The position numbers were made by a program, and so were the translations under genes. From Taenia hydatigena (lineage: Eukaryota; Platyhelminthes; Cestoda; Cyclophyllidea; Taeniidae), in contig JADWOT020000718.1 of assembly GCA_036345935.2 (NCBI GenBank), forward strand, positions 1 to 64,000: a stretch of 64,000 nucleotides of DNA, in the 5' to 3' direction. The first letter of the stretch is position 1. Every line of letters begins with the position of its first letter. This document shows, in pieces, positions 100 through 57,367 of this stretch. The notes beneath the pieces are model-generated. The model was not told where the DNA came from, did no database searches, and was given only the letters and a program-made list of their open reading frames with translations.

Positions 100-1830
100 T
101 TGTAGTGCTTAAAAATTCCGATTCTCATACGCCGCGGTTAAATGCTAAGAGATAAAGATACCAATATAGTCGGCTTAAAAGCCTTCACAAATAGCACTGA
201 GCTAGTCCATTACCTACGGCTCGACAATTTCAAATCGCCTTTTATTAGCTCCCAATCCACCCAACGCATTACTAAAATGTGTAGGCCTTTACAAGTATTA
301 TTGTTCAATATTTATTTTGGAAGCGTTTAAGTACTTATACAACTTATGTCACAGGCCGACTAATCATAAACATGCTTGAGCTTGTAAAGCTCCCCTTCTT
401 CTCCATATGACATGGAGACAGGCCCACTGTACCACCTCTACTAAATTGATTGCCCAATTGTTTTGCCACCTGTTGAACCAAATGCGAAAACTGTTAAATA
501 ACTTGGAAAAAGGCTCAAAGTAGAAAACACCTAGGACCTCTTACATCATTCGCATGCAGTCCAGGTTCGGGAGGAGATCCAAAGTTTGCCACATCAGGCC
601 TGTCGCAACAAGCATTTGTTCTGACGTGAGAATATCGGCAACGGGTAATCAAGATATGAAATGACACAGTTATAACTGCTCAGCTGCATAATTCCTCCTC
701 CTTCCCCGCCTTCCTCGGACCATTCACGCATGTCTAGTACGGTGCCACCTGCTGTCCTCATGAATGGATTCCACTGGTTCGGAAAGTTCGGAACATTCGT
801 AGGCACGTCTAGGACCAGACGAGTGGAGGAAGCAGAATGCAGTACTGGCAGGTCGCATTTGTAACGTTTCATCCCGCATGGTGACATTCTTGTGCAACGA
901 CATGGCGTGGTGATCAAACAGCTGATCTGAGCTTGTGCATTAGCGGGAAACTCTCCTGACGCGAGGCCACGAAGGAAATCCTCTACATTATTGCAATGCT
1001 GTCTTGCACGATCAAAGCAATGAAGGTGCCCATGCGCGTTCGTGAAGAAAAGCACCCAGCAGAGGCGTATGTCCGCCACCTCATATTCTCAGCACTGTGG
1101 TGGATACTAAGAGTTTGGATGCAAAGGGCTTGATCTAATCAGTCATTTGTTGATTTCTCCTAAAACAGAACTCTTAATAGTAAATTTCCGCAACTTATGA
1201 GGAGGACACGGATGCGAAAAGATTTAGTAAAGCTATGCAACGGGCGCACAACTAATCATACCAACCTGAGACATTACCACACAAAATCTGGTAAAACTGT
1301 TTAAGCGAACCCTCTTTTGCACAACAAGTGATCGACAACCAGTTCAAATCACTTCCCGCATCGAGCCAATCAGCAAGGCCACACGAATAACCAAAATTCT
1401 CATGTGCTACGCAGATCTGTTTGGAAGGATGTGCGCAAGTCCTGGCTGCGCGCTCTTGTTATTTATAATGGTATTGTGTTGATTTATTCATCGCTAATGG
1501 AAAGCATGCCAGATCTTAAAATGTCGTTTTGGAACATAATACATTAAACTGAAAAGGCATCTTGTGATGTGATTAGCGAATCGATGTGAAAGGGTAGTGT
1601 TGATACAACACATGACGAAGGCGACTGTAATTATGGACAGGTATGCATACACGCCTTTAATATGTTAACAAAACGAATGCAGATTGCAATGTGTGTGCCT
1701 TTGCATCGCTTTAGAAAATAGGTCAGCAGTAACTCATTTTGCTGTTGCCAGTCCGATTCGATCCAAATTGGTGGTCTTCTTCAAATGAAATAACTCGGCG
1801 TAGATGATGTGGATGTGCGTTAGTTTGCAT
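100..1830. repeat. Block A', diverged inverted copy of 7515-9290
   Basis: Read in reverse complement, this stretch follows 7515-9290 base for base with many substitutions and some indels. The similarity runs without a break across the palindrome boundary at 661, so 1-660 and the outer arm were already joined before the palindrome formed. It carries a broken family A gene. Confidence 0.88.
340..1079 (-). pseudogene. Family A gene, outer left copy, frame-broken
   Basis: The first 140 codons match the family A frame at 8264-9076 at roughly 70 percent of residues, including RARQ followed by a cysteine, the CRCT motif, G-M-x-R-Y-x-C-D and the block ending LDMREW. Many changes are conservative (K/R, D/E), which suggests past selection on the protein. 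After the segment equivalent to D-Y-D-C-V-I, about 39 bases present in the inner copy are missing and the frame ends at 594. Similarity continues, out of frame, to about 340. The gene straddles the palindrome edge at 661. No in-frame ATG occurs at its start, so the first codons may belong to another exon. The family is not recognised. Confidence 0.6.
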
Positions 1831-3349
1831 TAATATTTGATACTGTAGACTTTTCAAGCGTCTGCATGCGTGCTTGATGGAGACATACCATGACAGGTAC
1901 AATGTCGCCACCCTCGATGAAATCGCGATTTTTCGTATAACTGCATGAAGATGTCAATGGGGTGTGCTGAAGGTAGCATTGAGGAGGAATAACATTAATT
2001 TAACAATTTCGACGATTGGGACGCATCTTAAAAGATGAAAGAGTGATTGTCAGTGCTGTCTTATCACGTGATCTTTGATTCGAGCTTAGGGTCTACGCAG
2101 TAATGGTGCTAAGGAATGAAGTAATGATGTGTGTCGCCTCCAATTATTCACCATTAGGTATCTGTCTGACTACCACGATCATCATCCACTCCGACTCATG
2201 ACCATTGAATTAGGGCTGAACGACAAATACTCAGCTGGTAGTGTGATAGAACCGACTGTGTGGTGGCGGTTTCAATGTGAGTGATGGGCAAGGCACAGCT
2301 CATCTCATTTTACCGCGTACTTATATGCACGATGCAAATGTTTATCGCGCATTTGTTGACTAAGCAATGAGAGAGCTAACTTCTCTTTTACTCGGCTACT
2401 TTCTGTATATGGGTATCCAAGTTTAGAAGTGAATGAGACTTTGTTTAAAGCAAAACAATTTCAAACAGGAAGAAAATACTCTCAAAAGCCTTCATTAGAA
2501 AACCGGCATGAAGTTTTGGAATGCTGTGCGTCCTGCAGCATAAATTGTCGCATCTGAGAATGCTCGATAAACCTTAACCTGCCGTTAACGTGATCCGTTA
2601 ATCTGAGGCATCGCTGATATCGACACTTCAAAATACAGAGGAGTAGGGCCACGTATTACGGCACAATGAAATATCAGTAGACGCTAACGTATGCATGAAA
2701 GAAAATAATCGCCTCTTTTTCTTTACTACTTCATGTGCTCGGGAAGTCGCATGCACTTCGCACTGTGACTTCTTGGCCATATCCCTAGTTCACATTGTCA
2801 AATTGCACATTGGGCCTTTGCGCTGCTCTTAGAACTCCGCGGTGCTCCAAACAAGTTTTTGCTATTGTGTGTGGACTTCAGACCATTCGTGTAAAGACAA
2901 TTGTGAAGTGTCGCCAAAAGTATGTCAATGGATATCGAATACTGTGACCAGTTGAAATCGTAAGGGCTAGCTTTAAGGTGAATGGAACCCGCCAACATTC
3001 ACCAGTTAGCTGCGTTTGATTATAACCGCAATCCCAGCAAGAGCCAGGGGCAGGGTTCCGGTGCGTGTCACGCATGCAGTCTTAATTAACAAAACCCATC
3101 CAAGTTGAATTCTGCCTCAATAAATTAGCACGATTTTACTGTTATTTGCATCGCTGTGGGCAATCTTGCGGCCCTATGCATACTGCAGGCCAAATTTAAC
3201 AACTTGCCCATACCAAGTAGCTCAAACAGTACAACTCGTCCAACTGATCAAAAGGCAGTATAGAGTAACGTTGCATTCAATTAAATACTAAGGGAATAAA
3301 GTACTGGTTGGAGAGTAAGTAGGCTTGTCTTCTGCTTTAAGCGTAGCTA
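1831..3349. other. No gene recognised
   Basis: Holds two overlapping minus-strand frames of about 65 codons (2798-3075), which lie downstream of the BTB-like exon on the same strand and could be its continuation, but no splice pattern is clear. The mirror is 54679-56197. Confidence 0.4.
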
Positions 3350-3592
3350 TTACGAACTGTCTTGATACAGAATGATTTCATGCATGGTCTCCAGGGCATT
3401 TAGAGAATTTCCACTGTGATGGATGGGTGGAGGCAAAAGGAAGAAGGAGGTGAGGAAGGATGAAAATCGGCGTGCTTTGATCCATAGCCATTTGGAAATG
3501 GTGATGCAGGCATCCATCAAATCTTTTACATTAAGCAAGTTGCATATTCTGAGTTCCAACTTAGGTGGAAGGTCAGTGGTTCTTCGTTGTTT
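3350..3592 (-). CDS. Possible terminal exon with a BTB-like helix
   Basis: The exon is proposed from a pyrimidine-rich acceptor (TTTGGTTGCGCTTTAG on the minus strand) just before 3592, and it runs open for 80 codons to a stop at 3350. Near its start, L-E-L-R-I-C-N-L-L-N-V-K-D-L-M-D-A-C resembles the helix pair at the end of BTB/POZ domains, where L-x-x-A-N-x-L-x-[IM]-x-D-L-x-x-x-C is typical. No BTB core (the D-V-x-[LF] strand and H-[KR]-x-[VI]-L motif) was found upstream, so this could be a remnant or chance. The remainder is proline-rich and unrecognised. Confidence 0.28.
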   Translation of the reverse strand, partial: KQRRTTDLPPKLELRICNLLNVKDLMDACITISKWLWIKARRFSSFLTSFFLLPPPIHHSGNSLNALETMHEIILYQDSS

Positions 3593-4034
3593 CTAAAGCG
3601 CAACCAAAGCATGCCATCGTTAGCGAACCGAAAATGGGATAAAGAAATTGTAGTGGTGAAGGTGACAAAGGGATGAATTAATGAGTGTTTGTAAAGATAA
3701 AGAAATAAGAAGAAATAATTAGAGACAACTATAGCTACCATCCGAAAAGACGTAATCGTCGAGTAATTGGATGACGGAAATGACGGGGTCTAAATACTGA
3801 TAAATTACCGAAGATTGCATGTTGAGAGTCACTCAACTGCAATCACAGACTCCAAAGCTTTGCCCTGTCAATGCTTTTCAATCAAGATAGCCGCATTTAA
3901 AAAACTATTTGGTATTTTAAGTGTGTTGAGTGAAAAATGATACTTTTATCCGAGGGCCTTTTTAGAAGCGAGGACGAAGAAAACAAGAACGATGCTTTGT
4001 TTTTTGCTTGACCCTACCTGCCTGAACCTAGTTA

Positions 4035-4388
4035 GTGCACAAGCGTTTGATCTATTACATCCACTTTCGCGATCTGAACAATGTACATCGAAACTCCTCG
4101 AATCCGCTGAACACTCTATTGCTTATGGGTTTGCTCAGTGGGCTTGAAATAAATTTATCAACAACAAGCTTCAACCAGCCTTGCCAAATGAATCTACTGT
4201 TTACGATTCAATGGCATGTTGGAGATTTTAAAATAGTTAAAGTTATCATGTATAAAGGCACTGAGGTGTGCAAAGATCTACTTAGGTATCTTCAATGCCT
4301 CGTTAATCTGCTTGTCAAGAGGCGAATCGTCTTTCGTGCTAATTTTGATCATCAGCATCAAGCAGAAGGGCGTCCACTAACTTATTAG
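4035..4388 (+). CDS. Open frame, 117 codons, unrecognised
   Basis: The frame looks protein-like in its second half, with alternating hydrophobic and charged residues and a basic helix (L-L-R-Y-L-Q-C-L-V-N-L-L-V-K-R-R). It opens with GTG and has no nearby in-frame ATG, so in a eukaryote it would have to be an internal or terminal exon. It ends at a TAG. No family is recognised. The right-arm twin is 53640-53993 on the minus strand, with identical residues. Confidence 0.28.
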   Translation: MHKRLIYYIHFRDLNNVHRNSSNPLNTLLLMGLLSGLEINLSTTSFNQPCQMNLLFTIQWHVGDFKIVKVIMYKGTEVCKDLLRYLQCLVNLLVKRRIVFRANFDHQHQAEGRPLTY

Positions 4389-4753
4389 ATTTATTCCGTC
4401 TCGCAAATGCAGGCGAAGGTCCTCCAATGAAATGTACTAATGGTGTTGACATCAATTAATCAGCCAACCACGTTAGTCGGCACACCACTCTAAATAAAAC
4501 TGCTACTTCTGGTTAGCCTGCAATGTGACGCAAAAAAAAGCTGTGCTCCTCAGTGTCTGGTGCCTCAGCGCTCGACTATGGTGACCTGAGTGGCACAGCA
4601 TCCAGCCTCTTGTCAAACAAACAGCTTTCTTTGCGGCATCTCTGCATCGGATGCGCTTTAATGGAAGGAAAATGAACTCGACTCTCCTCTGTCCTTATTC
4701 TGGTTGGGTTTGGAAATGGAACGTCGACTAATTACGATTTGCACAAATACTCT

Positions 4754-4984
4754 TTAAAGTGATTCTGAACTAGTTTGGGTATCTCTGAGTGTTAGGACTT
4801 CATCCTGGATAGGGGAATCTAGGTAAAGAAATCGAAACACCACTGTTGTGATGCCATCATTTAGTGCCGTTGCGGGGACGACGTGTAAGGTGGAAGAGGT
4901 GATGGAGAGTAGGACCACGAGCACAGTCATGAACCGACCACTTGTGTGTTGACCCCAAAAAAAGAATGAGACGTTTGCACACAT
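4754..4984 (-). CDS. Small candidate secreted peptide
   Basis: A 76-codon ATG frame. An internal ATG at residue 19 is followed by a hydrophobic run (T-V-L-V-V-L-L-S-I) and small residues, which resembles a signal peptide. The rest is mildly acidic and ends S-S-E-S-L. No family is recognised, and a frame this short can occur by chance. The right-arm twin is 53044-53274 on the plus strand. Confidence 0.25.
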   Translation of the reverse strand: MCANVSFFFWGQHTSGRFMTVLVVLLSITSSTLHVVPATALNDGITTVVFRFLYLDSPIQDEVLTLRDTQTSSESL

Positions 4985-5309
4985 TAGCGGTTTTTTCGGG
5001 ACAACCTTGCTCTACATGCATGGAATCATTTCGGTTGCATGGGTGCGGTAAATCTCCTATGTCAAAGGAAATATCGGTAATATTGTTTTAATTTGTTAAT
5101 AAGAACTGTGGATTTTGGGAGCTTCAATACGAATCGCACAATCTAGATGCATGAGATAAGAAATTTGACTAAGATTTAAAAATATCAAGCTATTCTAAGG
5201 CAGAAAAACAGCAGGATACTAGATGCAGTGGCAAAAATTTAGGTTGAGTGTGAAAGAAACGGCCGGTGGTGGATAGAATAGATAGCATAACAAACTCAAT
5301 AAACCAGGC

Positions 5310-5943
5310 TTGACAGTTATTTTGCATAAACCAGTGTGCAATAGACCAAAAAAGTGCTTTCTATTAATAGTACAATTTCATTATTCAAACAATGGTGAGA
5401 ATATCTTAAAAGCAGTAGATGGAGCCAAATGGTTGCAATGTTCGCCTTTAATTTTAGCAGATTTAACCACTGAAAGCAGTTACTTCTCCCTAGGAAGATG
5501 TTTAAGTTGGATTGCTAAACAGCTATTTGGTTTCAGGTATGCATATGTCCAGTTGCAATCGAAATGACCGCATGCGTGTGCGGCAAAACGAGACCAGAAA
5601 AGTCAAGCCAAAAGCATGGTTAGGTTCTATTCGGAATGGCTTCACTAAGTGATCATCACGACGTTGCGTCATTGTGATGGCATCGCCTTCCAACAGAAGG
5701 TCAGAGACACCAAATGAAATTTTAAATATTCAAACATGGGGTACATATTTAGTGGCATCGAAAATAGCTGGGATGGAATTAGATGGTAAAGGACGTATGT
5801 TCCTAAATTTAGTGATTCTGCCCGATGAATACAGTACTGGTTGCTCATCTTGTTGCATTGATGAGCGATTTAAGCGTTTTAACAGAAAATCCCAGAATAA
5901 TTTCCTTGGAACTTCATTTATAGCGGCATATCATGGAGCATAA
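5310..5943 (+). CDS. Two-exon gene fragment, unknown protein
   Basis: Two frames join cleanly across a 160-base intron. The first ends T-T-T-C-A-G at 5536, followed by GTATGC. The second begins at 5697 after CTTCCAACAG. Splitting there gives phase 2 on both sides and restores an arginine codon, so the frame reads from Q-L-F-G-F into R-R-S-E-T-P. Together they give roughly 150 residues with D-G-A-K-W, an S-W-I-A-K-Q-L-F-G-F segment, W-G-T-Y-L-V-A-S-K, and a G-C-S-S-C-C cluster before the stop at 5943. The upstream exon probably starts at an acceptor near 5370. No start codon is visible. The family is unrecognised. Confidence 0.42.
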
Positions 5944-7098
5944 GAGAATTGACCATCATCGTTTGAATTCAGGGAAATCAGCTGGTGTCAATCCAAATGT
6001 GATCACTTCTAGACCCTAGCCTTAGCATCTCTTATTTGCGCAAATGTGTTGCACGCATTCACTCACTCGTGTGCTACGATGGCACTCAGGCTGCGTTGCG
6101 ACTAAGCGCATTCGCAGAGACATTCTCTCAGAGAGAGTAGTCCCTTTCGCTACCTAATATTAATTACATCTCACTCTGTATAAGGGTGTCCATTGCATTG
6201 AAGGCACTTTGCCTTCTCAAAAGTTGTTACTTAATCGCAGGATGTAGCCATGATTTGTCGCCGTTACCGCTAGAGGTGCCATGTTTGCAAAGTAGTTGAC
6301 GCGAGGAAACGTTAGCGTGTGTGTCAACATCTGTAACGTTCGCTGTTCCGACAACTATGCATCACTATCTCACACTCGGATTAAAGTTTACCTACTCACG
6401 GCAAGTAGAGAGGGAGATGCACAGCAAAGTATGCATGGGTTGGTGATGCGCTTGATGCCCTTGTAAAGGTTTTAAAGACATCACCACTCTCTCCCAGCAC
6501 CATCTGGTTAAAGTCGTTACACATTCAACGAGTCAGTGGTGAGTAAAGTACAAAATTTCATGCACGAATTTTATTCGAGTAGTGCACAGAGCCAAAACAA
6601 GTGTGTGAACGCAGAGTTGACGTCTCTGAAATATCTACTAGTAGAACAAGCCATCGTGTCGGGATGAAGTGGCGAAGAAGGAGTGTTATTTTTGTTAATA
6701 TTAAGACATCACTACTAAGTTGAGGAAATCAAGAGCTATCAATAAGGCATCAAATCTGGTTCAATAGGAGTAGCTAGCATCAGCAGCAGGTTACCCAATC
6801 TTGACCACGAAAAGAGCTAGAACCACCGCTTGGTCAATGTGGGCCGCATGAGATCGAGGAGATGGTAGCAACAAAGTACAAGACCACTTGCAAATGATTT
6901 GTTACTGTTTCATACTTTACTCCGTCAAGGTCTTTAAGGTAATAGACCTCGGTGCATTTGCTCGTATGCTATTACACTCAAGGCAGCAGTCATGATTTAT
7001 AAACCCGTTTCATTGCATCCAGCTTTTTAACGATCTCCAATTGATCCGACTCTAAGCTGGAACAGGAACAGCTGTAAATAAATGGAATCCTTAACGCC
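5944..7098. other. No gene recognised
   Basis: No convincing frame. A short self-complementary CTCTCTGAGAGAG-like motif lies near 6124. Single-base differences from the right arm near 6217 and 6369 make a 64-codon frame on the right only (51674-51868). Confidence 0.4.
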
Positions 7099-7566
7099 AT
7101 GAGCCATTTTGAGAATATCCGGCACTTCATCCCAAGTGGCCGATTTGGTGGTGCTGACGTCGCATGTTTTGTTGAGTGTGGAGAAATGGTGCATAATTTG
7201 CGCTCAGGTGGGAATTTCGAGACATTAATTCCTCTCAACTGCGCCTTAGCTATCAGGCCTTCTGCTGGACACCTTGAAGATTTGGTAAGGGCATTGGCGT
7301 GGATTATAAATCTGGCAGAAATTTGTGCATCTAAAATGGCAACCGCTTTTGATAGTAATGAAGTTAATGGAAGACGCGAAGGCAACAAAGCCAGAGACTG
7401 CGGTGCTAGGAGAGACAGAAAGGAAATTGAAGATCAGGACCAACGATCACATAAAGGGGTTGATTATATTGCTGGAGCACCTGATCTGATAAAAAGTGGT
7501 CCTGACGTCGCCGCAATCCTAACCACGCCCACATCCACACCATCTGCATTGCATTATTTCATTTGA
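7099..7566 (+). CDS. Open frame, 155 codons from ATG, unrecognised
   Basis: Starts with a true ATG and stays open for 155 codons, unusual here. The N-terminal half (R-F-G-G-A-D-V-A-C-F-V-E-C-G, then a helix-like run to I-C-A-S-K-M-A-T-A) looks like a folded protein. The C-terminal third is polar and charged (G-R-R-E-G-N-K-A-R-D). A GTAAGG near 7285 could be a splice donor, so the true protein might leave this frame there. The opposite strand is also open for 132 codons, which weakens the argument. No family is recognised. The end overlaps the start of block A. Confidence 0.38.
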   Translation: MSHFENIRHFIPSGRFGGADVACFVECGEMVHNLRSGGNFETLIPLNCALAIRPSAGHLEDLVRALAWIINLAEICASKMATAFDSNEVNGRREGNKARDCGARRDRKEIEDQDQRSHKGVDYIAGAPDLIKSGPDVAAILTTPTSTPSALHYFI

Positions 7567-9290
7567 AGAAGACCTTTACCAAGTTTGGTCGAATCGGGCT
7601 AGCAACAGCTAAATGCGTTACCGGTGACCTGTTTTCTAAAGCCATGCAAAGGCACGCACACTGCAATCTGCATTAGTTTAGCCAACACCTCAAAGGTGTG
7701 AATGTATACCTGCCCATGAGCATAGTCGCCCACGTCCTATTTGCTGCATCATCAACAACTTCCTCACATCTATTCGCTGATTACGTCACAAGGTGCCTCA
7801 ATTTTTAATGCATTGTGCTCCAAAAATCACTTTTTAAATCTGACAGTTTTTCTACTAATGATGAATAAATCTACATAATATCATTGTAAATCACAAGAAC
7901 GTGCAGTCAGAACTTGCACATATCCCTTCAAACAGATCTAAGTATCACCTAAGAATCTTAGTTGGTCGTTGAGCTTTGCTGATTAAGTGGATGAGAGAAG
8001 TGACTAGAACTGGATGCTGATGATCACTTGTCGCATAAAAGAGGCTTCATTAGGATAGTTTTTATCAGATTTTGCGTGGTAATGTCTCAGGTCAGTTCGA
8101 TTAACTCTGCGTTCATTGAATGACCTTATTAAATCCCTTTCGCATTTATCTCCTCTTCGGCAGTTGCTGAAATTCATCAATAAGTGTACCGTTTTAGGAG
8201 GAATCAACACGTGAGCGGCTGTATCAAGACATTCCCATCCAAACTCTTAGTATTCACCACAGTGTGAAGGATATAAAATGGCTGGACGTACACATCTGCA
8301 GAATGCTTTTCTTTACAAACGCGGAGGGGCACTCTCATTATTCTGATCGTGCAAGACAGCATTGCGACAACGTAGAGGAGTTCTTTCGTGGCCTCGCGTC
8401 GAAAGAGTTTCCTGCTAATGCACACGCTCCGATCAGCTGTTTGATCACCACACCATGTCGCTGCACGAAAACTTCGCCGTATGGGATGAGGCGCTACGAA
8501 TGCGATTTGCCAGTACTGCACTCTGCTTCCCCCACTCGTCTCTGCATGGACGTGTCTAAGGACGTTCCCAACTTTTCAGACCAGTGGAATCCATTCTTGA
8601 TGGCAGCAGGTAGCACCGTATTGGACATGCGTGAATGGTCTGACGAAGGTGAAGAAGGAAGAGAAAGGATGCAGCTGAGCGATTATGACTGTGTCATTTT
8701 ATATCTTGATCGCCCGGATTTTGAACATCGGGACTGTGGACACCTGAATGCTGTAGGCGACGTCCTCACGTCAAAGCAAACGCTTGTTGTGACAGGCTCG
8801 ATGTGGCAAACATTGGATCTCCTCCCGAACTTGGACTGCATGCAAAAGATGTTCGAGGCCGTAAATGGTTTTTACTTTCTCCCTTTTTCCAAGTTATTTG
8901 ATAGTTGTCGCATTTGGTGCAACCGGTGGCAAAACAATTGGACGATCAATTTGGTGGAGATGGTGCAGTGGGCCTGTCTCCATGTCATATGGGAAAGGAC
9001 TGGAGCTTTACACGCCCAAGAATGTTTACGACTAGTCAGTCTACGACAGCATTCAATGAAGTACCCAAAGTTTTAAAAATAAAATTCTATATACTGATGC
9101 TTGAAAAGTCCTCCGCTTTTTATTAGTGCAGTGGGTGGGTTCGGGACAAAATAGAAGTGATTTGGAATTACCAAGCCGTAGGTAATTGATTCCCTTAGTG
9201 CCAATATCGTTGTATAGGCGTTCTTGCAGGCTATAAAGGCATCATTATCTCTCAAAATTTAACCATCGCGTGTGAGAACATGGATTTATA
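7515..9290. repeat. Block A, carries the longest family A frame
   Basis: This is the inner partner of the inverted block at 100-1830. It contains the 270-codon family A frame at 8264-9076. Its first half (about 7535-8240) is the only part of the palindrome where the arms clearly differ from each other. Confidence 0.88.
8264..9076 (+). CDS. Family A protein, 270 codons, unknown function
   Basis: This is the longest frame in the window. Features in order are RARQ near residue 28, the motif C-x5-C-x-C around 60-68, G-M-R-R-Y-x-C-D near 77, a conserved block ending LDMREW near 125, then a hydrophobic stretch D-Y-D-C-V-I-L-Y-L. The last resembles the core strand of SGNH or PC-esterase domains only weakly, and no catalytic triad could be placed. 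A diverged copy at 340-1079 keeps the same frame over its first half, which supports real coding. The frame begins with GTG. The first in-frame ATG is about 13 codons in, so this may be an internal exon. From about residue 213 an overlapping frame is also open, so the C-terminal part is less certain. Confidence 0.5.
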   Translation: MKDIKWLDVHICRMLFFTNAEGHSHYSDRARQHCDNVEEFFRGLASKEFPANAHAPISCLITTPCRCTKTSPYGMRRYECDLPVLHSASPTRLCMDVSKDVPNFSDQWNPFLMAAGSTVLDMREWSDEGEEGRERMQLSDYDCVILYLDRPDFEHRDCGHLNAVGDVLTSKQTLVVTGSMWQTLDLLPNLDCMQKMFEAVNGFYFLPFSKLFDSCRIWCNRWQNNWTINLVEMVQWACLHVIWERTGALHAQECLRLVSLRQHSMKYPKF

Positions 9291-9618
9291 CAGTGCTAAT
9301 AAATCCGAAATGCAATTCGATGCATCCAAGACTGCTCACTTACATTATGTGACTTAATTAGTCTGTCAGTTAGGGTTGCTTGATTTTGCGAATGGACATT
9401 CCTAAATTAGCCTGCTTTCTTGCAGACCGCATAATCACACGCGAGAAATCTGGTGGCATGCACTCGCACGCACCAAGACGAATTTTTCCTGCCGCAACAT
9501 TTGCTGTTTACCTCTCAACATCTAATTCGAATTACGACTTTATTTGCCGCTTTACAATGGTCGGTGTACACGCTGAGTCCACGTTGCCGACTAAGGAATG
9601 TAGGTTCAAAAATTAGAC

Positions 9619-9840
9619 GGCAGCGATTTTGATTTCTTGTGACCAACCGTATGCCCACTAAATGTTGTTTAACTAAGGGGACATCAACTTGAGATCTGTG
9701 AGTGTTACGTGTTACGATCGTAATCGTAATCAGATTTCAAATCGAGGCCAAAGCCAACCTCAAACCGTGTGAGTGTCACTGAGGTGTGAATGATTTAATT
9801 ATCATGAGGTTGGGCTTTTAATGCTCAACAGGGTGACCCA
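9619..9840. repeat. Block Q, relative of the inner palindrome junction
   Basis: Related in reverse complement to 29701-30096, starting from a shared GGCAGCG and including 17 identical bases (GACATCAACTTGAGATC) near 9680. The right-arm twin is 48188-48409. The relative at the centre has an extra segment of about 190 bases. Confidence 0.75.
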
Positions 9841-10166
9841 CTCTTATCAAGAACCTGATAAGCTCGTGAAGGTGGGTTCGCCAGTTGCTTTTGCTTAAGG
9901 AGTCTAATATTTTTGCACACGCATGGCTCAACTGCCCATGCAAGTGTTGTATGCTCCACTCGCAATTAATTTTGGAGTCCATACGCCATGTTGCCACCAT
10001 GGCATCACATCATCAAGAGATCATGAGCATTGATGGCTTGAGTGAGAGTTTGGAGAGCGATAGCAGACCACTTCATTGTTCTCTCATGAACTCTAAGTTA
10101 AATCTTTAGTAAGGTGAGATGCACTTTCACAGCACCTAGTTCGTCTGCAGTCACATCAAATGGCTG

Positions 10167-10259
10167 GCTGGTCGGGATTAAATTAGCCGTCAGCCAGCGT
10201 GTAAAATGACTGATCAGCCGAATCATCAACCTGAACGGCTAATCTCCCAACTGACCAGC
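10167..10259. repeat. Imperfect stem-loop, 24-base arms
   Basis: GCTGGTC...TTAGCCGT and ACGGCTAATC...GACCAGC pair with few mismatches around a 44-base loop, which itself repeats parts of the arms (CAGCCAGCG, GATCAGCC). It could be a small non-autonomous element or a folded RNA. No target-site duplication was identified. Confidence 0.45.
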
Positions 10260-10276
10260 GACTCTCATGGGTTCAT

Positions 10277-10558
10277 TTATTGACACGGTAAGGTGTCAAC
10301 GGCAGTGCTGTCTTTTCTACGTCCTCTGAGGATACATACGCACCACCAACAGCAACAAGAATGTAGACCCAAGAACACAATTGTTTGGTCGAACCGCACC
10401 GTGGGCAAGTTTGGAAACTGGACAAGCGGTGTAAGCCTCTTAGGTGGTAGCTGTGTATGGTTTTTCTTGCAGTGAAATCCGAATCCAAATATGATGTCAA
10501 GAGCAGTAAAATGGAGCCAAATTATCTTTGGGTGCATAACATCACGTCCTGCTTTCAA
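10277..10558 (-). CDS. Open frame with F-D-Q-T-I-V-F-L-G-L-H strand
   Basis: A 93-codon frame on the minus strand. A central F-D-Q-T-I-V-F-L-G-L-H-S resembles the F-D-L-V-V-V-A-L-G-L-F-D strand of the candidate gene at 25152-27038 and, loosely, the [DF]-x-V-V-x-x-x-G-x-[HW] block of SGNH/PC-esterase domains. After it the sequence becomes a cysteine and tryptophan run that comes from GTT/GGT repeats, and a second frame takes over. It may be a decayed exon. No ATG is convincing as a start. Confidence 0.22.
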   Translation of the reverse strand: MKAGRDVMHPKIIWLHFTALDIIFGFGFHCKKNHTQLPPKRLTPLVQFPNLPTVRFDQTIVFLGLHSCCCWWCVCILRGRRKDSTAVDTLPCQ

Positions 10559-10848
10559 CAGAGCAGGTATAAAATTAGGGACACTTGAGTGATAAACAGA
10601 GAAATCGAGGAGAAAGTTGGACAGCAGCTAAAATGTTGTCTGCTTCTTACGAATTGGCAACTGTTCCTTATCTTTTTTAAATTTAACAGCTTAAGGAAAT
10701 ACCCTCATGTGCCGAACAGGAGTAAACACATGCCGATTAGTGTAAAGCATGGAAAGGTAGCTGCTCACCACTTGCCACTTTAAAATCTCCTTTCGGAACG
10801 AACGTTTCCAAAAGAAATAGGCGTAGTTGGATTAGCATATCTCATCCA

Positions 10849-34310: not shown

Positions 34311-34317
34311 CTGTGCT

Positions 34318-39266: not shown

Positions 39267-39478
39267 TGATGCTTAAAAATGGACATGACGATGGCAATGG
39301 ATTTTGATAATTCGCTGTTAGTGACAGTGGCCTGGACCAGAAGTTAAACACCCAGACACATGATAAGAAGCGACTGATATGTGAATTGCCTCCAAAGGCT
39401 TGCGAAGGTTGGAAGTGTAGGCTTAGATTTCAAATCCGCCTAAGAAGGCCTGTAGAGCGGGTGTTGCAGTAGGCCTAA

Positions 39479-46888: not shown

Positions 46889-47179
46889 TCATTGATTTTG
46901 GCACTGCAACCTATTTACTTCCACTGTCCTAGTGCTTGCGTGAACGTTCTTGTGAGTCTGTTGATGCTGCCTACTCTCCATATTGCAGCTCATTGCGTAG
47001 TTAAAAGCGAATGTCACATCGCTTAACAGACTCTGCAGCACAACCGCTCCAGCGACCCAATAACATGTGGCTCCACCGTATGAGTGTGTGTTCGTGTGGG
47101 CGACCAAAGATAGGCCATTCGACAGGCTTACAACTTCCTTATAACCACACGTGTATGGACTACAAATATAAGTTGCCAC
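46889..47179 (-). CDS. Open frame, 96 codons, right-arm twin
   Basis: Mirror of 10849-11139. Confidence 0.25.
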   Translation of the reverse strand: MATYICSPYTCGYKEVVSLSNGLSLVAHTNTHSYGGATCYWVAGAVVLQSLLSDVTFAFNYAMSCNMESRQHQQTHKNVHASTRTVEVNRLQCQNQ

Positions 47180-47469
47180 TGGATGAGATATGCTAATCCA
47201 ACTACGCCTATTTCTTTTGGAAACGTTCGTTCCGAAAGGAGATTTTAAAGTGGCAAGTGGTGAGCAGCTACCTTTCCATGCTTTACACTAATCGGCATGT
47301 GTTTACTCCTGTTCGGCACATGAGGGTATTTCCTTAAGCTGTTAAATTTAAAAAAGATAAGGAACAGTTGCCAATTCGTAAGAAGCAGACAACATTTTAG
47401 CTGCTGTCCAACTTTCTCCTCGATTTCTCTGTTTATCACTCAAGTGTCCCTAATTTTATACCTGCTCTG

Positions 47470-47751
47470 TTGAAAGCAGGACGTGATGTTATGCACCCAA
47501 AGATAATTTGGCTCCATTTTACTGCTCTTGACATCATATTTGGATTCGGATTTCACTGCAAGAAAAACCATACACAGCTACCACCTAAGAGGCTTACACC
47601 GCTTGTCCAGTTTCCAAACTTGCCCACGGTGCGGTTCGACCAAACAATTGTGTTCTTGGGTCTACATTCTTGTTGCTGTTGGTGGTGCGTATGTATCCTC
47701 AGAGGACGTAGAAAAGACAGCACTGCCGTTGACACCTTACCGTGTCAATAA
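47470..47751 (+). CDS. Open frame with F-D-Q-T-I-V-F-L-G-L-H, twin
   Basis: Mirror of 10277-10558. Confidence 0.22.
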   Translation: MKAGRDVMHPKIIWLHFTALDIIFGFGFHCKKNHTQLPPKRLTPLVQFPNLPTVRFDQTIVFLGLHSCCCWWCVCILRGRRKDSTAVDTLPCQ

Positions 47752-47768
47752 ATGAACCCATGAGAGTC

Positions 47769-47861
47769 GCTGGTCAGTTGGGAGATTAGCCGTTCAGGTT
47801 GATGATTCGGCTGATCAGTCATTTTACACGCTGGCTGACGGCTAATTTAATCCCGACCAGC
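47769..47861. repeat. Imperfect stem-loop, right-arm twin
   Basis: Mirror of 10167-10259. Confidence 0.45.
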
Positions 47862-48187
47862 CAGCCATTTGATGTGACTGCAGACGAACTAGGTGCTGTG
47901 AAAGTGCATCTCACCTTACTAAAGATTTAACTTAGAGTTCATGAGAGAACAATGAAGTGGTCTGCTATCGCTCTCCAAACTCTCACTCAAGCCATCAATG
48001 CTCATGATCTCTTGATGATGTGATGCCATGGTGGCAACATGGCGTATGGACTCCAAAATTAATTGCGAGTGGAGCATACAACACTTGCATGGGCAGTTGA
48101 GCCATGCGTGTGCAAAAATATTAGACTCCTTAAGCAAAAGCAACTGGCGAACCCACCTTCACGAGCTTATCAGGTTCTTGATAAGAG

Positions 48188-48409
48188 TGGGTCACCCTGT
48201 TGAGCATTAAAAGCCCAACCTCATGATAATTAAATCATTCACACCTCAGTGACACTCACACGGTTTGAGGTTGGCTTTGGCCTCGATTTGAAATCTGATT
48301 ACGATTACGATCGTAACACGTAACACTCACAGATCTCAAGTTGATGTCCCCTTAGTTAAACAACATTTAGTGGGCATACGGTTGGTCACAAGAAATCAAA
48401 ATCGCTGCC
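48188..48409. repeat. Block Q, right-arm copy
   Basis: Mirror of 9619-9840. Confidence 0.75.
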
Positions 48410-48737
48410 GTCTAATTTTTGAACCTACATTCCTTAGTCGGCAACGTGGACTCAGCGTGTACACCGACCATTGTAAAGCGGCAAATAAAGTCGTAATTCG
48501 AATTAGATGTTGAGAGGTAAACAGCAAATGTTGCGGCAGGAAAAATTCGTCTTGGTGCGTGCGAGTGCATGCCACCAGATTTCTCGCGTGTGATTATGCG
48601 GTCTGCAAGAAAGCAGGCTAATTTAGGAATGTCCATTCGCAAAATCAAGCAACCCTAACTGACAGACTAATTAAGTCACATAATGTAAGTGAGCAGTCTT
48701 GGATGCATCGAATTGCATTTCGGATTTATTAGCACTG

Positions 48738-50513
48738 TATAAATCCATGTTCTCACACGCGATGGTTAAATTTTGAGAGATAATGATGCCTTTATAGCCT
48801 GCAAGAACGCCTATACAACGATATTGGCACTAAGGGAATCAATTACCTACGGCTTGGTAATTCCAAATCACTTCTATTTTGTCCCGAACCCACCCACTGC
48901 ACTAATAAAAAGCGGAGGACTTTTCAAGCATCAGTATATAGAATTTTATTTTTAAAACTTTGGGTACTTCATTGAATGCTGTCGTAGACTGACTAGTCGT
49001 AAACATTCTTGGGCGTGTAAAGCTCCAGTCCTTTCCCATATGACATGGAGACAGGCCCACTGCACCATCTCCACCAAATTGATCGTCCAATTGTTTTGCC
49101 ACCGGTTGCACCAAATGCGACAACTATCAAATAACTTGGAAAAAGGGAGAAAGTAAAAACCATTTACGGCCTCGAACATCTTTTGCATGCAGTCCAAGTT
49201 CGGGAGGAGATCCAATGTTTGCCACATCGAGCCTGTCACAACAAGCGTTTGCTTTGACGTGAGGACGTCGCCTACAGCATTCAGGTGTCCACAGTCCCGA
49301 TGTTCAAAATCCGGGCGATCAAGATATAAAATGACACAGTCATAATCGCTCAGCTGCATCCTTTCTCTTCCTTCTTCACCTTCGTCAGACCATTCACGCA
49401 TGTCCAATACGGTGCTACCTGCTGCCATCAAGAATGGATTCCACTGGTCTGAAAAGTTGGGAACGTCCTTAGACACGTCCATGCAGAGACGAGTGGGGGA
49501 AGCAGAGTGCAGTACTGGCAAATCGCATTCGTAGCGCCTCATCCCATACGGCGAAGTTTTCGTGCAGCGACATGGTGTGGTGATCAAACAGCTGATCGGA
49601 GCGTGTGCATTAGCAGGAAACTCTTTCGACGCGAGGCCACGAAAGAACTCCTCTACGTTGTCGCAATGCTGTCTTGCACGATCAGAATAATGAGAGTGCC
49701 CCTCCGCGTTTGTAAAGAAAAGCATTCTGCAGATGTGTACGTCCAGCCATTTTATATCCTTCACACTGTGGTGGATACTAAGAGTTTGGATGGGAATGTC
49801 TTGATACAGCCGCTCACGTGTTGATTCCTCCTAAAACGGTACACTTAATGGTGAATTTCAGCAACTGCCGGAGAGGAGATAAATGCGAAAGGGATTTAAT
49901 AAGATCATTCAATGAACGCAGAGTTAATCGAACTGACCTGAGACATTACCACGCAAAATCTGATGAAAACTATCCTACTGAAGCCTCTTTTATGCGACAA
50001 GTGATCATCAGCATCCAGTTCTAGTCACTTCTCTCATCCACTTAATCAGCAAAGCTCAACGACCAACTAAGATTCTCAGGCGATACTTAGATCTGTTTGA
50101 AGGGATATGTGCAAGTTCTGGCTGCACGCTCTTGTAATTTACAATGATATTATGTAGATTTATTCATCATTAGTAGAAAACCTGTCAGATTGTAAAAAGT
50201 GATTTTTGGAGCACAATGCATTAAAATTGAGGCACCTTGTGACGTAATCAGCGAATAGATGTGAGGAAGTTTTTATTGATGCAGCAAATAGGACGTGGGC
50301 GACTATGCTCATGGACAGGTATGCATTCACACCTTCGAGGTGTTGGCCAATCTAATGCAGATTGCAGTGTGCGTGCCTTTGCATGGCTTTAGAAAATAGA
50401 TCACCGGTAACGCATTTAGCCGTTGCTAGCCCGATTCGACCAAGCTTGGTAAAGGTCTTCTTCAAATGAAATAATGCGATGCGGATGGTGTGGATGTGGG
50501 CGTGGTTAGGATT
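48738..50513. repeat. Block A, right-arm copy
   Basis: Mirror of 7515-9290. It includes the right side of the divergence island (about 49788-50493), where nearly 30 differences from the left arm fall within 0.7 kb. Confidence 0.88.
48952..49764 (-). CDS. Family A protein, right-arm twin
   Basis: Identical in all 270 residues to the frame at 8264-9076, although the DNA just upstream differs at several percent between the arms. The abrupt change from several-percent difference to identity at the gene start suggests that recent gene conversion covers the gene but not its upstream region. Confidence 0.5.
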   Translation of the reverse strand: MKDIKWLDVHICRMLFFTNAEGHSHYSDRARQHCDNVEEFFRGLASKEFPANAHAPISCLITTPCRCTKTSPYGMRRYECDLPVLHSASPTRLCMDVSKDVPNFSDQWNPFLMAAGSTVLDMREWSDEGEEGRERMQLSDYDCVILYLDRPDFEHRDCGHLNAVGDVLTSKQTLVVTGSMWQTLDLLPNLDCMQKMFEAVNGFYFLPFSKLFDSCRIWCNRWQNNWTINLVEMVQWACLHVIWERTGALHAQECLRLVSLRQHSMKYPKF

Positions 50514-50929
50514 GCGGCGACGTCAGGACCACTTTTTATCAGATCAGGTGCTCCAGCAATATAATCAACCCCTTTATGTGATCGTTGGTCCTGATCTTCA
50601 ATTTCCTTTCTGTCTCTCCTAGCACCGCAGTCTCTGGCTTTGTTGCCTTCGCGTCTTCCATTAACTTCATTACTATCAAAAGCGGTTGCCATTTTAGATG
50701 CACAAATTTCTGCCAGATTTATAATCCACGCCAATGCCCTTACCAAATCTTCAAGGTGTCCAGCAGAAGGCCTGATAGCTAAGGCGCAGTTGAGAGGAAT
50801 TAATGTCTCGAAATTCCCACCTGAGCGCAAATTATGCACCATTTCTCCACACTCAACAAAACATGCGACGTCAGCACCACCAAATCGGCCACTTGGGATG
50901 AAGTGCCGGATATTCTCAAAATGGCTCAT
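50462..50929 (-). CDS. Open frame, 155 codons, right-arm twin
   Basis: Mirror of 7099-7566. It differs by one residue near the end (serine for leucine), at the edge of the divergence island. Confidence 0.38.
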   Translation of the reverse strand: MSHFENIRHFIPSGRFGGADVACFVECGEMVHNLRSGGNFETLIPLNCALAIRPSAGHLEDLVRALAWIINLAEICASKMATAFDSNEVNGRREGNKARDCGARRDRKEIEDQDQRSHKGVDYIAGAPDLIKSGPDVAAILTTPTSTPSASHYFI

Positions 50930-52084
50930 GGCGTTAAGGATTCCATTTATTTACAGCTGTTCCTGTTCCAGCTTAGAGTCGGATCAATTGGAGATCGTTA
51001 AAAAGCTGGATGCAATGAAACGGGTTTATAAATCATGACTGCTGCCTTGAGTGTAATAGCATACGAGCAAATGCACCGAGGTCTATTACCTTAAAGACCT
51101 TGACGGAGTAAAGTATGAAACAGTAACAAATCATTTGCAAGTGGTCTTGTACTTTGTTGCTACCATCTCCTCGATCTCATGCGGCCCACATTGACCAAGC
51201 GGTGGTTCTAGCTCTTTTCGTGGTCAAGATTGGGTAACCTGCTGCTGATGCTAGCTACTCCTATTGAACCAGATTTGATGCCTTATTGATAGCTCTTGAT
51301 TTCCTCAACTTAGTAGTGATGTCTTAATATTAACAAAAATAACACTCCTTCTTCGCCACTTCATCCCGACACGATGGCTTGTTCTACTAGTAGATATTTC
51401 AGAGACGTCAACTCTGCGTTCACACACTTGTTTTGGCTCTGTGCACTACTCGAATAAAATTCGTGCATGAAATTTTGTACTTTACTCACCACTGACTCGT
51501 TGAATGTGTAACGACTTTAACCAGATGGTGCTGGGAGAGAGTGGTGATGTCTTTAAAACCTTTACAAGGGCATCAAGCGCATCACCAACCCATGCATACT
51601 TTGCTGTGCATCTCCCTCTCTACTTGCCGTGAGTAGGTAAACTTTAATCCGAGTGTGAGACAGTGATGCATAGTTGTCGGAACAGCGAACGTTACAGATG
51701 TTGACACACACGCTAACGTTTCCTCACGTCAACTACTTTGCAAACATGGCACCTCTAGCGGTAACGGCGACAAATCATGGCTACATCCTGCGATTAAGTA
51801 ACAACTTTTGCGAAGGCAAAGTGCTTTCAATGCAATGGACACCCTTATACAGAGTGAGATGTAATTAATATTAGGTAGCGAAAGGGACTACTCTCTCTGA
51901 GAGAATGTCTCTGCGAATGCGCTTAGTCGCAACGCAGCCTGAGTGCCATCGTAGCACACGAGTGAGTGAATGCGTGCAACACATTTGCGCAAATAAGAGA
52001 TGCTAAGGCTAGGGTCTAGAAGTGATCACATTTGGATTGACACCAGCTGATTTCCCTGAATTCAAACGATGATGGTCAATTCTC

Positions 52085-52718
52085 TTATGCTCCATGATAT
52101 GCCGCTATAAATGAAGTTCCAAGGAAATTATTCTGGGATTTTCTGTTAAAACGCTTAAATCGCTCATCAATGCAACAAGATGAGCAACCAGTACTGTATT
52201 CATCGGGCAGAATCACTAAATTTAGGAACATACGTCCTTTACCATCTAATTCCATCCCAGCTATTTTCGATGCCACTAAATATGTACCCCATGTTTGAAT
52301 ATTTAAAATTTCATTTGGTGTCTCTGACCTTCTGTTGGAAGGCGATGCCATCACAATGACGCAACGTCGTGATGATCACTTAGTGAAGCCATTCCGAATA
52401 GAACCTAACCATGCTTTTGGCTTGACTTTTCTGGTCTCGTTTTGCCGCACACGCATGCGGTCATTTCGATTGCAACTGGACATATGCATACCTGAAACCA
52501 AATAGCTGTTTAGCAATCCAACTTAAACATCTTCCTAGGGAGAAGTAACTGCTTTCAGTGGTTAAATCTGCTAAAATTAAAGGCGAACATTGCAACCATT
52601 TGGCTCCATCTACTGCTTTTAAGATATTCTCACCATTGTTTGAATAATGAAATTGTACTATTAATAGAAAGCACTTTTTTGGTCTATTGCACACTGGTTT
52701 ATGCAAAATAACTGTCAA
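52085..52718 (-). CDS. Two-exon gene fragment, right-arm twin
   Basis: Mirror of 5310-5943, with the same splice signals and the same residues. Confidence 0.42.
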
Positions 52719-53043
52719 GCCTGGTTTATTGAGTTTGTTATGCTATCTATTCTATCCACCACCGGCCGTTTCTTTCACACTCAACCTAAATTTTTGCCAC
52801 TGCATCTAGTATCCTGCTGTTTTTCTGCCTTAGAATAGCTTGATATTTTTAAATCTTAGTCAAATTTCTTATCTCATGCATCTAGATTGTGCGATTCGTA
52901 TTGAAGCTCCCAAAATCCACAGTTCTTATTAACAAATTAAAACAATATTACCGATATTTCCTTTGACATAGGAGATTTACCGCACCCATGCAACCGAAAT
53001 GATTCCATGCATGTAGAGCAAGGTTGTCCCGAAAAAACCGCTA

Positions 53044-53274
53044 ATGTGTGCAAACGTCTCATTCTTTTTTTGGGGTCAACACACAAGTGGTCGGTTCATG
53101 ACTGTGCTCGTGGTCCTACTCTCCATCACCTCTTCCACCTTACACGTCGTCCCCGCAACGGCACTAAATGATGGCATCACAACAGTGGTGTTTCGATTTC
53201 TTTACCTAGATTCCCCTATCCAGGATGAAGTCCTAACACTCAGAGATACCCAAACTAGTTCAGAATCACTTTAA
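53044..53274 (+). CDS. Small candidate secreted peptide, twin
   Basis: Mirror of 4754-4984. Confidence 0.25.
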   Translation: MCANVSFFFWGQHTSGRFMTVLVVLLSITSSTLHVVPATALNDGITTVVFRFLYLDSPIQDEVLTLRDTQTSSESL

Positions 53275-53639
53275 AGAGTATTTGTGCAAATCGTAATTAG
53301 TCGACGTTCCATTTCCAAACCCAACCAGAATAAGGACAGAGGAGAGTCGAGTTCATTTTCCTTCCATTAAAGCGCATCCGATGCAGAGATGCCGCAAAGA
53401 AAGCTGTTTGTTTGACAAGAGGCTGGATGCTGTGCCACTCAGGTCACCATAGTCGAGCGCTGAGGCACCAGACACTGAGGAGCACAGCTTTTTTTTGCGT
53501 CACATTGCAGGCTAACCAGAAGTAGCAGTTTTATTTAGAGTGGTGTGCCGACTAACGTGGTTGGCTGATTAATTGATGTCAACACCATTAGTACATTTCA
53601 TTGGAGGACCTTCGCCTGCATTTGCGAGACGGAATAAAT

Positions 53640-53993
53640 CTAATAAGTTAGTGGACGCCCTTCTGCTTGATGCTGATGATCAAAATTAGCACGAAAGACG
53701 ATTCGCCTCTTGACAAGCAGATTAACGAGGCATTGAAGATACCTAAGTAGATCTTTGCACACCTCAGTGCCTTTATACATGATAACTTTAACTATTTTAA
53801 AATCTCCAACATGCCATTGAATCGTAAACAGTAGATTCATTTGGCAAGGCTGGTTGAAGCTTGTTGTTGATAAATTTATTTCAAGCCCACTGAGCAAACC
53901 CATAAGCAATAGAGTGTTCAGCGGATTCGAGGAGTTTCGATGTACATTGTTCAGATCGCGAAAGTGGATGTAATAGATCAAACGCTTGTGCAC
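53640..53993 (-). CDS. Open frame, 117 codons, right-arm twin
   Basis: Mirror of 4035-4388. Confidence 0.28.
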   Translation of the reverse strand: MHKRLIYYIHFRDLNNVHRNSSNPLNTLLLMGLLSGLEINLSTTSFNQPCQMNLLFTIQWHVGDFKIVKVIMYKGTEVCKDLLRYLQCLVNLLVKRRIVFRANFDHQHQAEGRPLTY

Positions 53994-54435
53994 TAACTAG
54001 GTTCAGGCAGGTAGGGTCAAGCAAAAAACAAAGCATCGTTCTTGTTTTCTTCGTCCTCGCTTCTAAAAAGGCCCTCGGATAAAAGTATCATTTTTCACTC
54101 AACACACTTAAAATACCAAATAGTTTTTTAAATGCGGCTATCTTGATTGAAAAGCATTGACAGGGCAAAGCTTTGGAGTCTGTGATTGCAGTTGAGTGAC
54201 TCTCAACATGCAATCTTCGGTAATTTATCAGTATTTAGACCCCGTCATTTCCGTCATCCAATTACTCGACGATTACGTCTTTTCGGATGGTAGCTATAGT
54301 TGTCTCTAATTATTTCTTCTTATTTCTTTATCTTTACAAACACTCATTAATTCATCCCTTTGTCACCTTCACCACTACAATTTCTTTATCCCATTTTCGG
54401 TTCGCTAACGATGGCATGCTTTGGTTGCGCTTTAG

Positions 54436-54678
54436 AAACAACGAAGAACCACTGACCTTCCACCTAAGTTGGAACTCAGAATATGCAACTTGCTTAATGT
54501 AAAAGATTTGATGGATGCCTGCATCACCATTTCCAAATGGCTATGGATCAAAGCACGCCGATTTTCATCCTTCCTCACCTCCTTCTTCCTTTTGCCTCCA
54601 CCCATCCATCACAGTGGAAATTCTCTAAATGCCCTGGAGACCATGCATGAAATCATTCTGTATCAAGACAGTTCGTAA
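54436..54678 (+). CDS. Possible terminal exon with a BTB-like helix, twin
   Basis: Mirror of 3350-3592, identical in sequence as far as read. Confidence 0.28.
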   Translation, partial: KQRRTTDLPPKLELRICNLLNVKDLMDACITISKWLWIKARRFSSFLTSFFLLPPPIHHSGNSLNALETMHEIILYQDSS

Positions 54679-56197
54679 TAGCTACGCTTAAAGCAGAAGA
54701 CAAGCCTACTTACTCTCCAACCAGTACTTTATTCCCTTAGTATTTAATTGAATGCAACGTTACTCTATACTGCCTTTTGATCAGTTGGACGAGTTGTACT
54801 GTTTGAGCTACTTGGTATGGGCAAGTTGTTAAATTTGGCCTGCAGTATGCATAGGGCCGCAAGATTGCCCACAGCGATGCAAATAACAGTAAAATCGTGC
54901 TAATTTATTGAGGCAGAATTCAACTTGGATGGGTTTTGTTAATTAAGACTGCATGCGTGACACGCACCGGAACCCTGCCCCTGGCTCTTGCTGGGATTGC
55001 GGTTATAATCAAACGCAGCTAACTGGTGAATGTTGGCGGGTTCCATTCACCTTAAAGCTAGCCCTTACGATTTCAACTGGTCACAGTATTCGATATCCAT
55101 TGACATACTTTTGGCGACACTTCACAATTGTCTTTACACGAATGGTCTGAAGTCCACACACAATAGCAAAAACTTGTTTGGAGCACCGCGGAGTTCTAAG
55201 AGCAGCGCAAAGGCCCAATGTGCAATTTGACAATGTGAACTAGGGATATGGCCAAGAAGTCACAGTGCGAAGTGCATGCGACTTCCCGAGCACATGAAGT
55301 AGTAAAGAAAAAGAGGCGATTATTTTCTTTCATGCATACGTTAGCGTCTACTGATATTTCATTGTGCCGTAATACGTGGCCCTACTCCTCTGTATTTTGA
55401 AGTGTCGATATCAGCGATGCCTCAGATTAACGGATCACGTTAACGGCAGGTTAAGGTTTATCGAGCATTCTCAGATGCGACAATTTATGCTGCAGGACGC
55501 ACAGCATTCCAAAACTTCATGCCGGTTTTCTAATGAAGGCTTTTGAGAGTATTTTCTTCCTGTTTGAAATTGTTTTGCTTTAAACAAAGTCTCATTCACT
55601 TCTAAACTTGGATACCCATATACAGAAAGTAGCCGAGTAAAAGAGAAGTTAGCTCTCTCATTGCTTAGTCAACAAATGCGCGATAAACATTTGCATCGTG
55701 CATATAAGTACGCGGTAAAATGAGATGAGCTGTGCCTTGCCCATCACTCACATTGAAACCGCCACCACACAGTCGGTTCTATCACACTACCAGCTGAGTA
55801 TTTGTCGTTCAGCCCTAATTCAATGGTCATGAGTCGGAGTGGATGATGATCGTGGTAGTCAGACAGATACCTAATGGTGAATAATTGGAGGCGACACACA
55901 TCATTACTTCATTCCTTAGCACCATTACTGCGTAGACCCTAAGCTCGAATCAAAGATCACGTGATAAGACAGCACTGACAATCACTCTTTCATCTTTTAA
56001 GATGCGTCCCAATCGTCGAAATTGTTAAATTAATGTTATTCCTCCTCAATGCTACCTTCAGCACACCCCATTGACATCTTCATGCAGTTATACGAAAAAT
56101 CGCGATTTCATCGAGGGTGGCGACATTGTACCTGTCATGGTATGTCTCCATCAAGCACGCATGCAGACGCTTGAAAAGTCTACAGTATCAAATATTA

Positions 56198-57367
56198 ATG
56201 CAAACTAACGCACATCCACATCATCTACGCCGAGTTATTTCATTTGAAGAAGACCACCAATTTGGATCGAATCGGACTGGCAACAGCAAAATGAGTTACT
56301 GCTGACCTATTTTCTAAAGCGATGCAAAGGCACACACATTGCAATCTGCATTCGTTTTGTTAACATATTAAAGGCGTGTATGCATACCTGTCCATAATTA
56401 CAGTCGCCTTCGTCATGTGTTGTATCAACACTACCCTTTCACATCGATTCGCTAATCACATCACAAGATGCCTTTTCAGTTTAATGTATTATGTTCCAAA
56501 ACGACATTTTAAGATCTGGCATGCTTTCCATTAGCGATGAATAAATCAACACAATACCATTATAAATAACAAGAGCGCGCAGCCAGGACTTGCGCACATC
56601 CTTCCAAACAGATCTGCGTAGCACATGAGAATTTTGGTTATTCGTGTGGCCTTGCTGATTGGCTCGATGCGGGAAGTGATTTGAACTGGTTGTCGATCAC
56701 TTGTTGTGCAAAAGAGGGTTCGCTTAAACAGTTTTACCAGATTTTGTGTGGTAATGTCTCAGGTTGGTATGATTAGTTGTGCGCCCGTTGCATAGCTTTA
56801 CTAAATCTTTTCGCATCCGTGTCCTCCTCATAAGTTGCGGAAATTTACTATTAAGAGTTCTGTTTTAGGAGAAATCAACAAATGACTGATTAGATCAAGC
56901 CCTTTGCATCCAAACTCTTAGTATCCACCACAGTGCTGAGAATATGAGGTGGCGGACATACGCCTCTGCTGGGTGCTTTTCTTCACGAACGCGCATGGGC
57001 ACCTTCATTGCTTTGATCGTGCAAGACAGCATTGCAATAATGTAGAGGATTTCCTTCGTGGCCTCGCGTCAGGAGAGTTTCCCGCTAATGCACAAGCTCA
57101 GATCAGCTGTTTGATCACCACGCCATGTCGTTGCACAAGAATGTCACCATGCGGGATGAAACGTTACAAATGCGACCTGCCAGTACTGCATTCTGCTTCC
57201 TCCACTCGTCTGGTCCTAGACGTGCCTACGAATGTTCCGAACTTTCCGAACCAGTGGAATCCATTCATGAGGACAGCAGGTGGCACCGTACTAGACATGC
57301 GTGAATGGTCCGAGGAAGGCGGGGAAGGAGGAGGAATTATGCAGCTGAGCAGTTATAACTGTGTCAT
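56198..57367. repeat. Block A', right-arm copy cut by the palindrome edge
   Basis: Mirror of 661-1830. The similarity to block A stops abruptly at 57367, whereas on the left it continues to about position 100. This copy is therefore truncated. Confidence 0.88.

Follow-up and report, generated by a model that had tools for sequence, protein, structure and literature searches.

How does a tapeworm genome come to hold two 27 kb stretches that are almost perfect reverse complements of one another, and what might keep them so alike? This is the question raised by the window, by which we mean the whole stretch of 64,000 nucleotides analysed here, the leading 64 kb of the 92 kb contig C1243 in a Taenia hydatigena assembly of 306,030,797 bases and 1354 contigs. 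A sequence-only reading had described a 55 kb palindrome with 27 kb arms and a 1.9 kb spacer, and self-BLAST confirms it: together with a base-by-base list, it sets the left arm at 661..28143 (plus strand, with a gap of 58 Ns inside) and the right arm, its reverse complement, at 30044..57367 (minus strand), on either side of an asymmetric spacer of 1,900 bases (28144..30043). By self-BLAST, the outer block (661-16832 against 57367-41218) is 99.64% identical, with 34 mismatches and 5 gap openings, and the inner block (16891-28143 against 41298-30044) 99.92%, with 7 mismatches and 2 gap openings; leaving out the Ns and a duplicated segment, the left arm measures 27,344 bases and the right 27,324. 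What we have, then, is inverted arms of many kilobases, more than 99% alike, flanking a shorter spacer, and an inverted match of 27 kb at more than 99.6% lies far beyond chance. The left flank (1..660) occurs on that side only and belongs to a repeat unit that carries on through 661-1900, while the right flank (57368..64000) is unrelated to it and holds a further dispersed repeat from near 58282. This last repeat, whose start lies in 58282-59500, has about 39 other copies at 84-88% among those scored. Known from assembled sequence, the palindrome is a genuine feature of the assembly and, at least for its inner 24 kb, very likely exists as such in the worm.

Might the outer part nevertheless be a product of scaffolding? 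Of the two arms, just the left is interrupted by the 58-N gap (16833..16890), and the 81 bases that precede the gap (16752..16832, plus strand) are repeated exactly just past it, at 16891-16971, while being single in the right arm; this repeat is an unmerged contig overlap, and the left arm was therefore put together from two pieces. In the published account, the genome was assembled with Canu from 33x PacBio data, polished with Pilon and scaffolded with mate pairs of up to 15 kb insert, with a later Hi-C version (PMC8384839), and such inserts are unable to place 27 kb arms uniquely. Positions 1-16832 could accordingly be another copy or haplotype, wrongly joined to the piece from 16891, so that the true palindrome would be smaller (with arms of about 11 kb) or would end elsewhere. 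The contig also stops just 660 bases beyond the arm, the one divergent island between the arms (see below) sits within this outer-left piece, and 7 of the 18 smaller contigs checked have lengths exactly divisible by 1,000 bases, which implies a step at which contigs were cut. Against all this, the gap-free stretch 16891-64000 holds by itself a palindrome with arms of 11.25 kb (24 kb of gap-free inner part), the left end resembles a natural repeat copy rather than a chimera, and similar palindromes free of Ns are present on the large contig C8 and on C1039, C1067, C407 and C1242. We thus regard a wrong join as unlikely, if well short of negligible. The contigs with such round lengths are C1243, C1066, C1043, C350, C681, C383 and C730, and they look as if cut by Hi-C correction.

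A second technical source of palindromes would be missed hairpin adapters or amplification chimeras, and indeed 0.5% of unamplified PacBio reads have been reported to carry palindromes, mixed with missed adapters (PMC6218980). Missed adapters, however, yield no spacer, and the close palindromes found here have asymmetric spacers of 1 to 16.6 kb, arms that differ by up to 1.4% (C1242) and, in two loci, a spacer in common; we find this origin very improbable.

The differences between the arms are few and most unevenly spread. A base-by-base comparison counts 41 substitutions, 31 of them, with two 1-base indels, inside an island at 6203..8254, and the 10 elsewhere bear out the earlier estimate of about ten differences outside one island. 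Those 10 fall in roughly 25 kb (0.04%), accompanied by two 1-base indels and one 22-base indel at 16517-16542, and there are no differences at all across 661-6202 and 8255-15340. Within the island, 27 of the 31 substitutions crowd into 7545-8254 (3.8%), and the bulk of the island falls within the dispersed repeat beginning at 7530. When the alleles at 7545-8254 are set against 15 other copies of this repeat, those copies show the right arm's allele alone at 11 sites, the left arm's alone at 6 and a mixture at 13, so that each arm has private changes; none of the 15 matches either arm as a gene-conversion donor, the best reaching 96.05%. The pattern would fit arm-to-arm exchange in the window's palindrome, and the island itself may have escaped homogenisation, or one arm may have acquired it from a copy outside the sample, or the outer left piece may be the other copy or haplotype of the scaffolding alternative.

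What are the arms made of? They are mosaics of dispersed repeats, with at least 55 matches elsewhere at 73-97% for 10000-22000 (best 23 of 1021 candidates scored), at least 42 for 6100-9300 (best 40 of 753), at least 52 for 1-1900 (best 40 of 679) and at least 41 for the spacer (best 40 of 550). The spacer contains a dispersed repeat at 28203..29682 (plus strand) that is an inverted relative, at 86-94%, of 26057-27314 in the arm and has at least 38 other copies at 80-89%. Of the copies used for the neighbour count described below, few are on contigs C1-C10, namely 4/39, 1/13, 3/31, 0/9 and 8/36, against 35/52 for HSP70. The window contains no Rfam family at gathering score, no tRNA and no tandem array. 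A relative of 7530-9278, inverted, older and about 78% alike, occupies 122..1817 on the minus strand and spans the outer left boundary; the two form an older inverted pair within the outer part of the large palindrome. All this sits in a genome described as 308.54 Mb with 43.02% GC and 63.4% repeats, mostly unclassified (46.68% of the genome), for whose size its authors credit retrotransposable elements and not large segmental duplications (PMC8384839); palindromes of the kind described here bear on the question of why this genome is large, and in the main text of that paper neither 'palindrom' nor 'inverted' occurs.

Is the locus one of a kind? Taking as neighbour pairs those copies, among the copies scored, that lie within 60 kb of each other, we counted 23 inverted pairs and 1 direct pair (C732), or 19 inverted of 20 once 4 inverted loci seen with two queries are removed. 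HSP70, with at least 54 matches in this assembly (best 52 of 866 candidates scored) and, like HSP90, described as expanded in T. hydatigena (PMC8384839), served as a control under the same 60 kb rule and gave 7 inverted of 13 pairs; the excess has a Fisher p of 0.008, a rough value since the loci are partly related by duplication. One HSP70 of this assembly has its best tapeworm match, among those listed, in Echinococcus granulosus at 96%; a search for COX1 in the assembly gave no match. For the right-flank repeat, by eye, there are inverted pairs on C994 and C7 and a direct pair on C525. Seven other inverted pairs were compared at the sequence level and have arms that are 98.6-99.97% alike: C8 (at least 16.3 kb, 99.93%), C407 (5.5 kb, 99.5%), C1242 (8.1 kb, 98.6%), C9 (3.5 kb, 99.97%), C1282 (1.5 kb, 99.8%), C1039 (at least 4.6 kb, 99.96%) and C1067 (7.5 kb, 99.64%). 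The C8 arms contain, in their interior, sequence that matches the spacer of C1242, and the blocks shared with C407 run there in the opposite order to C8 and C1242; these different centres mean that inverted duplication arose more than once in these repeats.

With this in mind, we lean, a little beyond an even bet, towards the window showing an inverted duplication, either young or homogenised, within repeat-rich taeniid DNA, one of several palindromes of the same repeat families. Inverted duplications would form repeatedly where such repeats already sit inverted to each other, by template switching or foldback repair; the arms would then swap sequence through gene conversion, and an occasional arm-to-arm crossover would flip the spacer. 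Both the mode of origin and the crossover are what we infer from the arrangement of the copies.

The competing idea is a transposon of the foldback type whose terminal inverted repeats are very long; each palindrome would be one copy of it, with the arms as its ends. Foldback and other transposons with long terminal inverted repeats form dispersed families of inverted pairs, as these loci do, and a spacer is common to the tapeworm loci C1039 and C1067; moreover, the dispersed repeat at 7530..11495 (plus strand, mirrored in the right arm) contains a unit, 7530-9300, whose 7530 ends face each other in every one of the 7 neighbour pairs found at other loci, so that a smaller family does share an inner edge. 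In the large palindromes, however, inner and outer ends vary, with no common termini among C8, C1242, C407 and the window, as the opposite block order of C407 and the position of the C1242 spacer already illustrate; the tapeworm arms reach 27 kb, and no transposase or other domain was seen among the ORFs scanned in the window and the related loci. On balance we hold a transposon origin to be rather improbable.

Does anything keep the arms alike once they have formed? The best answer comes from C1039 and C1067, which have one spacer in common, in the same orientation (90.9% identity over 2,130 sites, and 48.6% if one is reversed). In this comparison the arms are 99.92% alike within C1039 and 99.73% within C1067, and only 94.7-94.9% between the two loci, so that arms are closer within a locus than between loci sharing the palindrome. 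The shared spacer indicates that the palindrome is older than both copies, and the arms must then have been made alike within each locus since; we conclude from the assembled copies that the palindrome arms of C1039 and C1067 evolve in concert. Near-identical arms can be made more alike by short-read polishing, such as the Pilon step described for this genome (PMC8384839), and polishing could mask a few arm differences, but not 5%. A 760-base tract behaves in the same way, with both arms grouping by locus in C383 (99.87%) and in C730 (100%). For the window's own palindrome, high arm identity can be obtained from recent duplication alone, without gene conversion, and the homogenisation that we infer there is inseparable from a recent inverted duplication. 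The arm-to-arm homogenisation proposed in the sequence-only reading is thereby upheld for the related palindromes C1039 and C1067. What is new here is that palindrome arms evolve in concert in a tapeworm that is probably a hermaphrodite, and the clearest case of this lies outside the window.

The ends of the arms offer some hints as to how the palindrome was put together. Copies of the family run unbroken across the outer left junction (660/661) over 1-1900, at C23 (89%), C2 (87%), C1 (81%) and C732 (79%), which makes this end the older arrangement and leaves the right end, 57367/57368, to be taken as the breakpoint; in a search with 57000-59500 (best 40 of 887 candidates scored) the left arm itself is absent from the matches listed, so the absence of spanning copies there is uninformative. 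At the inner left end, matches at other loci end at 28141-28143, from both sides, which marks it as a new join. The only perfect palindrome of at least 14 bases in the window lies right here, at 28138..28151, an observation made after the fact; none of 6 other palindromes has a perfect palindrome of at least 10 bases touching an inner junction. At the inner right end, the similarity of the spacer to C8 and C9 carries on for 46-55 bases of the arm, at 71-77%; random placements stay under 64% in 95% of cases but reach 85% at most, and this end may therefore be an older arrangement too. Among the matches listed, no other spacer copy reaches either inner junction, all lying within 28190-29682, and among the copies scored no second locus has the same centre or both inner junctions. 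An older outer-left end combined with an older inner-right end would fit a single arm-to-arm crossover that flipped the middle; the junctions would look no different had the pieces been wrongly joined at the N gap.

Large palindromes with such arms inevitably bring sex chromosomes to mind. Taenia tapeworms are hermaphrodites, so that the sex-chromosome setting suggested earlier does not fit and the male-female depth test proposed with it is inapplicable. The general anatomy, with arms above 99% and a small spacer, is certainly that of an ampliconic palindrome carrying testis genes, but the species is probably a hermaphrodite, the arms hold no recognisable genes among the ORFs scanned, and related palindromes are found on the large contigs C8 and C9 as well; that interpretation seems to us exceedingly unlikely.

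The arms had also been credited with several candidate genes in two copies each. The left arm, spacer and flanks contain 202 ORFs of at least 55 aa, and a Pfam scan of 150 of these (at least 61 aa) gave a best E-value of 0.0046, the chance level for 150 scans, with introns and short exons outside its scope; weak zinc-finger matches occurred, none beyond chance. Related loci gave 0.0043 at best in 94 of 201 ORFs of at least 85 aa, and 25 ORFs of C1039 and C1067 gave 0.0026. What does survive of the claim is one mirrored frame that behaves like coding sequence, though borne on a repeat and broken in some copies: an ORF of 292 codons at 8198..9076 (plus strand, mirrored at 48952-49830), lying within a dispersed repeat and with copies on C1067, C1039, C9 and C8. 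Against the C1067 copy, which is also open, pN is 0.027 and pS 0.093, with amino-acid changes at 19 of 694 sites and silent changes at 17 of 182 (Fisher p 0.0004), a signal of purifying selection; on C1039 and C9 the frame is broken. It looks like a recently coding sequence inside a dispersed repeat. Its 292-aa product had no Pfam match and no match in the PDB at E 1, its one relative found is an unnamed 175-aa protein (P0001), and its predicted structure, at a mean pLDDT of 33.4, is uninformative. By eye, a right-flank ORF at 61001-61279 (plus strand) carries a C2H2-like zinc-finger pattern.

Why should any of this matter? Palindromes undergoing gene conversion have been studied mainly on sex chromosomes, whose lack of a partner to pair with is taken to promote them. 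Large palindromes are also present in the bdelloid rotifer Adineta vaga, another animal genome without sex chromosomes, where they join allelic or gene-bearing blocks, whereas those of the tapeworm are built of repeats. The human Y palindromes P1-P8 share with the tapeworm case their inverted arms of more than 99% and short spacers, and would also resemble it in homogenisation by gene conversion and in an occasional spacer-inverting crossover; they differ in belonging to a sex chromosome and in having genes within the arms, where the tapeworm has repeat DNA, no recognised genes and a family spread across many contigs (PMC3723533). Willow sex chromosomes likewise carry convergent, complex palindromic repeats outside mammals, tied in their case to the sex-determining region (PMC7023750). 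Dispersed conversion palindromes in the repeat DNA of a hermaphrodite would free the mechanism of its tie to sex chromosomes, and a single genome would then offer numerous replicate loci at which to measure conversion. We might also speculate, at long odds, that self-homogenising repeat palindromes in these worms, described as having no canonical piRNA pathway (PMC4558846, PMC6880638), would be transcribed (hypothetically) as long hairpins that feed siRNAs against the same repeats; if so, palindromes would do the work of piRNA clusters, and conversion between the arms would preserve a perfect hairpin.

As for the HSP70 genes themselves, six of them (L029-L034) are mirrored in C5:19014019-19711491, in two groups of three that flank a point near 19.36 Mb, with L029 and L032 identical across 4,824 bases; this arrangement is possibly an inverted duplication of hundreds of kilobases, or possibly a haplotype duplicated in the assembly.
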